A stretch of DNA of 64,000 bases, from NCBI RefSeq assembly GCF_024347455.1, contig NZ_AP025483.1, forward strand, positions 868,001 through 932,000. The letters run 5' to 3'. This document shows positions 28,396 through 30,962 of the stretch, piece after piece (the first letter of the stretch is position 1; the number at the start of each line of letters is the position of its first letter). A model generated the notes under the pieces. It had not been told where the DNA came from. It did not search any database and saw nothing but the letters and a program-made list of their open reading frames with translations. The position numbers and the translations under genes were made by a program. Origin of the DNA: Vibrio echinoideorum. Lineage in GTDB: Bacteria; Pseudomonadota; Gammaproteobacteria; Enterobacterales; Vibrionaceae.

Positions 28396-28692
28396 ACCAA
28401 TCTCCCTATTAAACATAATTATAGACATGGCTTGTTTTTAATATCCAACCAATACGAAAAAGTCACTATAACGATCAGTTGATTTCAATCGTGTGATAGC
28501 CAAATTATGCCCTTAATAAATAGACATATGAATTTAATCGTTGATAGCGGAATGTATACCTTTATCACACTTATGAACTTTACTCGGATAGGTTACCAAC
28601 TGCGTAATATTTATCACATAAGCAACGATAATGATTTGCCATGATTATTAGTAATTGATAACCGAGCGTAATCGTAAACAAAAGGAGTCACG

Positions 28693-29427
28693 ATGACAGC
28701 AGTGCTTGCTTTGTTTCGAGCTATGTTAGGTAGCCTGAGAGACTTATTACCGATTGTCGCGGTGATTGCTTTCTTCCAACTCGCGGTTCTCCAAGAGCCG
28801 CTTCCTCATCTATTTTCTATTTTGTTTGGCCTGATGCTGGTGGTTTTAGGCCTCACTTTTTTCATCTTCGGACTCGAAATGGGACTTTTCCCGATTGGAG
28901 AGTCGATGGCTCAAGCATTTGCTCGCAAGGGGAGTGTGTTCTGGTTACTGACCTTTGCTTTTTGTTTAGGCTTTGGTACCACCATCGCAGAACCCGCATT
29001 AACTGCGGTTGCTGCCGAGGCCGCTGAAGTGGCGGCAGAAGGCGGCGTTATCCCCAACTCTTTAGATGAGATGGAACAATACGCTGATGGTCTCAGGCTT
29101 ACTGTGGCGCTTTCTGTTGGTATCGCGATTTTACTTGGCGTGTTACGAATCCTGAAAGGCTGGCCAATTCAATACATGATTATCGGTGGTTATATTGGTG
29201 TTGTGGTGCTGACAGCATTTGCTCCTGAAAATATCATCGGTATCGCATATGACTCTGGAGGCGTGACGACTTCAACCATCACCGTTCCTCTCGTTACTGC
29301 TTTAGGGGTTGGTTTGGCTTCTGCGATTAAGGGACGTAATCCTATGATTGATGGATTTGGCTTGATCGCGTTTGCCTCACTATTGCCGATGATGTTTGTG
29401 ATGGTTTATGGAATGGTGGTGACATGA
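28693..29427 (+). CDS. umpA: DUF1538 membrane protein, probable cation/proton antiporter subunit UmpA
   Basis: 244 residues, mostly hydrophobic with about six to seven membrane segments. Two conserved polar patches interrupt the helices: GTTIAEPAL (95-103) and [15 protein letters not shown] (185-199), followed by [10 protein letters not shown] (214-223). These are the hallmarks of DUF1538. In Halomonas a pair of DUF1538 proteins (UmpA/UmpB) was described as a two-component Na+(K+)/H+ antiporter, as I recall. First gene of a four-gene operon; AAAGGAGTCACG before ATG; stop overlaps the next start by four bases. Confidence 0.8.
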
Positions 29428-30218
29428 TCAGCTTCCAGCAATTTATAGATACTTTTCTTGGTACCGTGACTGATGTTATTCCTATTGGTGTCATTATCTT
29501 TGGTTTTCAGTTAGCGGTGTTACGTAAGCCTGTCACTAATTTAGCCAAAGTACTACTTGGCTTTTTCTACGTGATCTTAGGTCTCTCTCTATTTTTGATG
29601 GGGCTTGAATTGGCATTGTTTCCTTTAGGGGAGACGATGGCGATGCAATTAACCGAGCCAAGTTTTTTGTCGGAATTTAAGATCAGCTCAGGACATGAAT
29701 TGGTGTGGTTTGACTATTACTGGGTCTATCTGTTTGCATTCTTTATTGGTTTTAGTACTACGATAGCCGAACCTTCTTTGATTGCTGTCGCAATTAAGGC
29801 GAACCAAGTTTCTGGTGGCAGCATTAGGATCAACGGTTTAAGAATTGCTGTCGCACTCGGTGTCGCGATTGGTATCTCCCTTGGGAGTTATCGCATCGTT
29901 GCAGGTGACCCTATCCACTACTACATCATTTTTGGTTATGTCATCGTCGTGATTCAAACCTTCTACGCGCCCAAACTAATTATTCCGTTAGCTTACGATT
30001 CGGGTGGCGTAACCACATCAACGGTGACGGTGCCCTTGGTGACGGCTCTTGGGTTAGGGCTTGCTTCAACCGTACCTGGACGTAATCCCGTGATCGATGG
30101 TTTTGGCTTGATTGCGTTTGCCAGCTTATTTCCAATCATCTCTGTAATGGGCTATGCCCAAATAACACATTGGTTAAATCGTTTACACACCTCTAAGGAG
30201 AGTAAAGATGCGCTTTAA
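29424..30218 (+). CDS. umpB: DUF1538 membrane protein, probable antiporter subunit UmpB
   Basis: 264 residues, clearly paralogous to the preceding protein: STTIAEPSL (111-119), [15 protein letters not shown] (190-204), [10 protein letters not shown] (219-228) and a matching helix pattern. The ATGA overlap with umpA indicates translational coupling and a 1:1 complex. The last 11 bases overlap the PII-like gene. The positively charged C-terminal tail ([12 protein letters not shown]) and the loops between helices could be the contact site for the downstream regulators (inference). Confidence 0.8.
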
Positions 30219-30558
30219 ACTTATCTTAGCGTTTGTCGAAGAGAGCAAGACAGACATCGTGCTTGACGCCGCGCGTGATGCTGGCGCAACCGGAGCGACG
30301 GTGATTAATAATGCCAGAGGACAGGGCTTAAACCAGAAACGCACTTTCTTTGGCTTGACGCTAGAGGTTCAAAAAGACGTGTTGTTGTTTGTTGTCGAAG
30401 AGCATTTAGCTAGACATATTCTCGAAAGGATCAGTGAGGTGGGGGAGTTTGACCAAGAATCGGGGCAAGGTATTGCGGTACAGATAGATGTAGAAGATGC
30501 CGTAGGGGTTGCGCACCAAGTAGAGACGTTGACTAAAATTGTAGAGGATGAGCTATGA
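30208..30558 (+). CDS. PII-like signalling protein linked to the DUF1538 pair
   Basis: 116 residues with the PII ferredoxin-like fold pattern: beta1 [10 protein letters not shown], helix 1, the T-loop position ARGQGLNQKRTFFG (36-49), VLLFVVEE and the closing IDVEDAVGV. It contains no tyrosine at all, so the uridylylation site of GlnB/GlnK (Tyr51) is absent, and the B-loop Lys is replaced (ESGQGI). It may therefore bind a nucleotide or other ligand differently. Start at ATG 30208 overlaps umpB by 11 bases with AAGGAG upstream. Probable cytoplasmic regulator of UmpAB. Confidence 0.8.
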   Translation: MRFKLILAFVEESKTDIVLDAARDAGATGATVINNARGQGLNQKRTFFGLTLEVQKDVLLFVVEEHLARHILERISEVGEFDQESGQGIAVQIDVEDAVGVAHQVETLTKIVEDEL

Positions 30559-30962
30559 GTAGCAGTGAAAGAATCCGAGTGAGTGATGTAATGGCCAATA
30601 CCTATGTCATTATCGATGGGTTGACCACCGTGTTAGAAGCGATTGAGATGGCAAGAAAACACAAGGTAAAAGCCATTATCGTAGATAAACGTCATGAGGA
30701 TGATGAGTACGGCATTGTATTGATGAATGACATTGCTAAGAAAGTGCTTGCTAAGAACCGTTCTCCAAAGCGAACCAATGTTTATGAAATCATGACAAAA
30801 CCAGCCTTAAGTGTGTCGGCAGATATGAACGTTAAGTATTGCGCTCGACTGTTTGAGCGGTTTGGTATCAGTCGTGCTCCGGTGGTCAGTAATAATCAAA
30901 TCGTCGGTATGGTTAGTTACAATAATATCGTGATCAACGGCATGGCGAGAGATGACGTGTAG
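30555..30962 (+). CDS. Two-CBS-domain protein linked to the DUF1538 pair
   Basis: 135 residues consisting of a Bateman module: CBS1 about 7-66 (VSDVMANTYVIIDGLTTVLEAIEMA) and CBS2 about 75-133 (VYEIMTKPALSVSADMNVKY ... GISRAPVV). CBS pairs bind adenosyl ligands and often gate transporters. It overlaps the PII-like gene by ATGA, so all four genes are translationally coupled. It probably senses AMP/ATP or another adenine nucleotide for the antiporter (inference). Confidence 0.85.
   Translation: MSSSERIRVSDVMANTYVIIDGLTTVLEAIEMARKHKVKAIIVDKRHEDDEYGIVLMNDIAKKVLAKNRSPKRTNVYEIMTKPALSVSADMNVKYCARLFERFGISRAPVVSNNQIVGMVSYNNIVINGMARDDV

Follow-up and report, generated by a model that had tools for sequence, protein, structure and literature searches.

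A DUF1538 membrane-protein pair with its own PII-like and CBS proteins: a candidate gated antiporter operon in Vibrio echinoideorum

Why should two DUF1538 membrane-protein genes overlap in series with genes for a PII-like protein and a pair of CBS repeats? The question is raised by a locus of Vibrio echinoideorum (RefSeq assembly GCF_024347455.1, contig NZ_AP025483.1) that lies in a window of 64,000 nucleotides, the whole stretch of DNA analysed (positions 868,001 to 932,000 of the forward strand). The reading preferred here, to which we give a probability of roughly 0.6, is that the operon encodes an UmpAB-type Na+(Li+,K+)/H+ antiporter together with a dedicated PII-like adaptor that gates it and a CBS protein that serves as a second input. 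UmpAB antiporters and PII-gated transporters are each known; their union was not found in the literature searched, nor was any description of a PII or CBS link of DUF1538, most subscription journals and preprints lying outside that literature. If true, a Na+(K+)/H+ antiporter acted on by a dedicated PII-like protein would tie the cell's ion balance and pH to its internal signalling, and the presence of PII and CBS genes beside membrane proteins of an antiporter type suggests a transporter with its own signalling proteins as a switch.

The linkage of the PII-like gene to DUF1538 was surveyed with DUF1538, not PII, as bait, and the linkage is therefore not built into the counts; gene labels in the locus tallies derive from profiles built from those very loci. 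Four samples, which may share species and are not independent, comprise (a) the best 80 of 567 confirmed loci, hence the nearest relatives, from named genomes with UmpA 69-97% identical; (b) 40 loci hand-picked from listed rows, which represent 38 genomes out of the 126 that have DUF1538 in a set of 398 from the phylum; (c) seven loci on plasmids, one in each of seven records out of nine (Methylocystis, Chelativorans and five Clostridia); and (d) 40 loci of the class, in 39 genomes, hand-picked from the 104 UmpA places that 103 of the 369 genomes contain. Of the 167 loci in these samples, 158 have a PII-like gene near DUF1538. It stands beside umpB in 77 of the best 80, with a CBS gene too in 76; PII and CBS are found, respectively, at 36 and 21 of the 40 phylum loci, at seven and none of the seven plasmid loci, and at 38 and 37 of the 40 class loci. 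Four of the nine loci without PII are at contig ends and five are not so explained; at one class locus, L280, a contig end intervenes, and at L249 about 1.4 kb separates umpB and PII. Among the best 80 of 567 loci, 76 keep the order UmpA-UmpB-PII-CBS, and contig ends truncate the remaining four (L058, L074 and L111 before PII, L080 before CBS). The flanks are not conserved, with 36 clusters of 72 first downstream genes (largest 20) and 35 clusters of 74 first upstream genes (largest 26). Because 76 of 80 loci keep the order while the flanks vary, it is not a product of chance, and the unconserved flanking genes rule out general conservation of gene order as its source. An arrangement peculiar to Vibrio is likewise ruled out by the loci in the phylum, class and named-genome samples, and the DUF1538-PII pair is also present in Bacillota and Alphaproteobacteria. 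A preliminary description of the window had named confinement of the linkage to a few close relatives as grounds for giving up its proposal of a regulated antiporter; the linkage of PII extends far past them.

Whole genomes give a similar picture. With the PII-like profile applied at E of at most 1e-12, DUF1538 occurs in 126 and the PII-like family in 105 of the 398 phylum genomes: 100 hold both, 26 DUF1538 only, 5 PII-like only and 267 neither (Fisher odds ratio 205, p 3e-62, relatedness uncorrected). When 12 of the 26 DUF1538-only genomes were searched again at E 0.01, a divergent PII-like gene appeared directly beside DUF1538 in ten, among them G120, where it adjoins a DUF1538 fragment.

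The four genes of the window are real and located as first described (Table 1). Their serial overlap, also part of the preliminary description, amounts to 4 bases between umpA and umpB (ATGA), 11 between umpB and PII and 4 between PII and CBS (ATGA) along 28693-30962, and Shine-Dalgarno-like sequence is visible by eye 5' of umpA and of the PII gene; co-transcription is presumed. The identities given earlier stand as well, since both membrane proteins match DUF1538 with UmpA and UmpB as best NCBIfam models, and the P-II match and two CBS stretches exceed the Pfam cut-offs (DUF1538 22.6, P-II 25, CBS 24 bits). The host genome (5.74 Mb, 4 contigs) carries DUF1538 at this locus only and two classical PII genes at other sites; the closest UmpA relatives, among the best 80 of 567 loci, are those of V. 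chagasii (97% identity) and V. lentus (96%).

Table 1. Genes of the DUF1538-PII-CBS operon, in window coordinates.
Gene product	Position	Strand	Length and profile matches
umpA-like DUF1538 membrane protein	28693..29427	+	244 aa; Pfam PF07556 236.5 bits; NCBIfam UmpA 382.1 bits
umpB-like DUF1538 membrane protein	29424..30218	+	264 aa; Pfam 227.7 bits; NCBIfam UmpB 349.4 bits
PII-like protein	30208..30558	+	116 aa; shortened T-loop, C-terminal helix; Pfam P-II 43 bits
Stand-alone protein, two CBS repeats	30555..30962	+	135 aa; Pfam CBS 65.3 bits, 2 stretches

What might the membrane pair transport? Both proteins match PF07556 over nearly their whole length and are 54% identical to each other in pairwise alignment, and a simple scan gives the umpA-like protein eight hydrophobic peaks, the first two overlapping. 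In the Halomonas zhaodongensis study, umpAB alone provides Na+(Li+,K+)/H+ antiport and salt and alkali tolerance in E. coli KNabc, and UmpA and UmpB co-precipitate (Meng et al. 2017, PMC5484666). The Halomonas pair, like that of Vibrio, consists of homologous DUF1538 membrane proteins of 244-271 aa, its genes overlapping by 1 base rather than 4 (PMC5484666); the words PII and CBS are absent from the text of that paper, and the sole 'PII' in the other DUF1538 papers checked belongs to a peptide motif. Unlike Halomonas UmpAB, the Vibrio proteins fall below the NCBIfam equivalog cut-offs (382.1 against 490 bits for UmpA, 349.4 against 500 for UmpB). The UmpA cut-off is very narrow, since none of the 369 class genomes attains it, though 103 match at E 1e-80; with the cut-offs missed and that of UmpA so narrow, the Vibrio pair is therefore classed as UmpAB-type and not as an equivalog. 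Homology to Halomonas UmpAB would make Na+(K+)/H+ antiport the probable activity in this Vibrio. Because Halomonas umpAB alone works in E. coli, one of 14 control genomes searched and itself without DUF1538, PII and CBS are dispensable for transport, as regulators would be. DUF1538 ranks among the top 20 families in a model that predicts optimal growth pH by machine learning (PMC13255231), and UmpAB homologues of cable bacteria are discussed as a possible salinity adaptation; neither PII nor CBS occurs as a word in one of the two papers on these bacteria.

The true substrate could instead be another solute or ion whose uptake or efflux PII and CBS tune, and the Na+(K+)/H+ exchange recorded in E. 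coli KNabc a side activity. The papers found assay one pair (PMC5484666), DUF1538 occurs also in groundwater, soil and human-associated bacteria, and the NCBIfam shortfall of the Vibrio proteins points the same way. An AlphaFold2 model of a fused DUF1538 pair gave no solved-fold match at E <= 0.001, which also leaves room for another substrate. This alternative seems to us improbable.

The proposal of a gated antiporter turns next on the PII-like protein, which has the PII fold (beta-alpha-beta, twice) and a short, conserved T-loop, KTFFGLTLE-QRDV, about five residues shorter than that of the host GlnK. An alignment of 193 distinct PII-like segments departs from the classical residues (Q39, K58, the B-loop TGxxGDGK for ATP/2-oxoglutarate, R101/R103): the K58 column is a gap in all 193, the placement of that gap being alignment-dependent, K90 is replaced by I in 76% and R101 by G in 92%. 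Tyr51, the uridylylated residue, is not kept either, its position holding T in 39%, V in 22%, S in 12% and I in 7%. Since other residues mostly stand where the classical ATP and 2-oxoglutarate ones would be, the name of nitrogen regulator is doubtful and a nitrogen-regulation role drawn from the PII name alone is rejected; the earlier idea that energy or nucleotide state is sensed through PII fares poorly in the same 193 sequences. The residues point to a ligand mode other than the classical ATP/2-oxoglutarate one. PstA, the c-di-AMP-binding PII-like protein, likewise combines the PII fold with a short T-loop and lacks both Gln39/Lys58 and the TGxxGDGKI B-loop; its motif TKLxxxGGFLxxGNTT (PMC4316997) was not seen by eye in the PII-like consensus GATGATVINNARGEG. 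CPII (PDB 5drk), also PII-like, is no nearer to the Vibrio protein than the classical PII proteins compared.

Orphan copies of the PII-like gene occur in diverse settings. One (L218) lies by dusB, an ntrB-like kinase gene (below cut-off) and ntrC, a second (L227) has by eye a similar neighbourhood, and two more (L213, L230) are near argB; these lineages may have co-opted the family for nitrogen control. Several orphan copies have one in-frame stop each, taken as early C-terminal stops, and the frame in L221 and L222 is 110 aa long against 116 model positions.

The stand-alone CBS protein has the two repeats of a CBS-pair sensor, and its best solved relative is cyanobacterial CBS-CP12 (PDB 5nmu), at 92.1 bits against 39.4 for the next. 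That match spans residues 8-127, with the stretches RHE-D-YGIV and VYEIM-KP in common, and covers the CBS part alone; the Vibrio protein ends after it. Ten residues (K45, R46, D50, G53, D59, Y77, E78, K82, P83 and V110) are more than 90% conserved among 94 locus relatives and the Vibrio protein. Among 133 PII-CBS pairs, the end of the PII gene and the start of the CBS gene share 4 bases in 112 and 1 base in a further 11. Beside DUF1538-PII pairs, CBS comes and goes and PII remains; in two genomes PII and CBS share one contig and DUF1538 is on another (L219, L220), and distances for CBS correlate better with PII (0.70) than with UmpA (0.57) or UmpB (0.52) over 123 loci, phylogeny being uncontrolled. 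On these three grounds the CBS protein would act through PII.

Architecture varies around the same core. The Vibrio type, with separate UmpA and UmpB, one PII and CBS, is joined by a form with fused UmpAB, one PII and CBS (L115, L116, L117, L118, L119, L262, L272) and, in several families, by a CBS-free form with separate UmpAB and one PII. In a divergent branch with fused DUF1538, comprising 11 genomes (G005, G013, G018, G026, G060, G061, G093, G120, G133, G152, G169), 10 have a second PII-like gene, several matches being weak and the profile built from the same material; the three second copies given to Pfam (L231, L172, L175) do not match P-II. All five clostridial loci (L156-L160) have a fused DUF1538 pair and one frame in which the same self-built profile marks two PII stretches; this frame is 217-229 aa long in four and 305 aa in L160, whose start is not settled. 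Pfam recognizes both stretches in one of four tandem frames tested and one stretch in the other three. One such tandem PII has 2753 relatives among 3070 candidates, the best 120 including named Bacillus, Virgibacillus, Thermobrachium and Clostridiales entries. On this evidence PII seems to be the core partner, and CBS and a second PII seem to be alternatives for the second input. Of the two dedicated sensors first proposed, PII keeps its place; CBS is accessory only, and elsewhere a second or tandem PII occurs without it.

Several loci are notable in their own right. A tandem PII chain poses the question of how the usual trimer would form. Locus L117 (G138) has two DUF1538 systems on one strand (fused UmpAB, PII, CBS, then PII, UmpA, UmpB), L275 has three consecutive DUF1538 genes followed by PII-CBS, and in L146 the first set is followed downstream by another, made up of a 647-aa frame with two DUF1538 stretches and a PII. 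P0241, an ENA contig of 2487 bases, encodes a 759-aa chain with three DUF1538 domains, which may be genuine or come from the assembly. A few frames that match PII and measure 250-300 aa run into the gene upstream of them and are taken as start-site artefacts.

In the mechanism proposed, UmpA and UmpB would form the transport unit, as homology to Halomonas UmpAB suggests, and the PII-like protein, presumably a trimer, would dock on its cytosolic face. The conserved short T-loop may then shut or open the transport path, in the manner of GlnK on AmtB and SbtB on SbtA, a ligand seating the PII-like protein on UmpAB or releasing it, with inhibition the most likely sign. The CBS protein would modulate this as a second input, mainly via the PII-like protein. 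UmpAB itself would be predicted to be a trimer, for which the three-DUF1538 chain of P0241 is a hint at most.

A number of findings weigh against this reading. Neither DUF1538 fused to PII nor PII fused to CBS was observed in the loci. Five loci lack an adjacent PII with no contig end to blame: in L129 and L130 PII and CBS lie together on another contig of the same genome, in L131 and L132 PII is at another site, and L265 has, in the stretch read, umpA without umpB, PII or CBS. The second search at E 0.01 left two of its 12 genomes (G245, G218) without PII, and 5 of the 398 genomes have PII-like without DUF1538 even at that threshold. Since such genomes exist and some others hold orphan copies near ntrBC-like genes or argB, the PII-like family is not tied to DUF1538 alone.

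These orphans bear on a second alternative, in which UmpAB is the sensor: in response to ion or pH state it would let go of the PII-like and CBS proteins or bind them, and these would then act on other targets. AmtB sequesters GlnK, PII is the conserved partner of DUF1538, and copies beside dusB, ntrB-like and ntrC genes or argB suggest that the family may act elsewhere; yet 88 of the 105 PII-like phylum genomes have a single match at E 1e-12, and so in most the operon copy is alone. We regard this direction of signalling, too, as unlikely. That the four genes are merely co-transcribed for dosage or timing, their proteins not regulating each other, accords with the habit of operons to unite functionally linked, non-touching proteins, but is very improbable given an overlap of 4 bases or 1 between the PII and CBS frames of 123 pairs out of 133, a PII kept while its neighbours change, and fused DUF1538 accompanied in some lineages by two PII genes or tandem PII.

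Outside the operon, toxS and a transcriptional regulator gene lie downstream on the opposite strand. Upstream of umpA, an alignment of 11 Vibrio upstream regions has TCACA invariant at 28614-28618 and TTTGCCAT mostly conserved at 28635-28642; the region from 28614 to 28642 is a possible regulator site.

The gated-antiporter reading invites a broader one, which we advance tentatively and with somewhat less than even confidence: DUF1538 transporters may be widespread PII-gated cation/proton antiporters, with a DUF1538 pair and a PII-like protein of non-classical ligand as core, CBS or a second PII added by lineage, a DUF1538 fold perhaps absent from solved structures, and UmpAB trimers matching the PII trimer. 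The nearest known systems are AmtB-GlnK and SbtA-SbtB. No sequence relation of DUF1538 to either was found, a search of solved structures having given no useful relative, and the Vibrio PII-like protein differs in its shorter T-loop and mostly replaced classical ligand residues; an extra CBS or second PII is present, and docking is here a proposal from the genes. In common with both, the gene of a PII-fold protein adjoins that of a transporter, a linkage found at 158 of 167 DUF1538 loci, and the T-loop is a plausible docking element (PMC10710835, PMC8352866).
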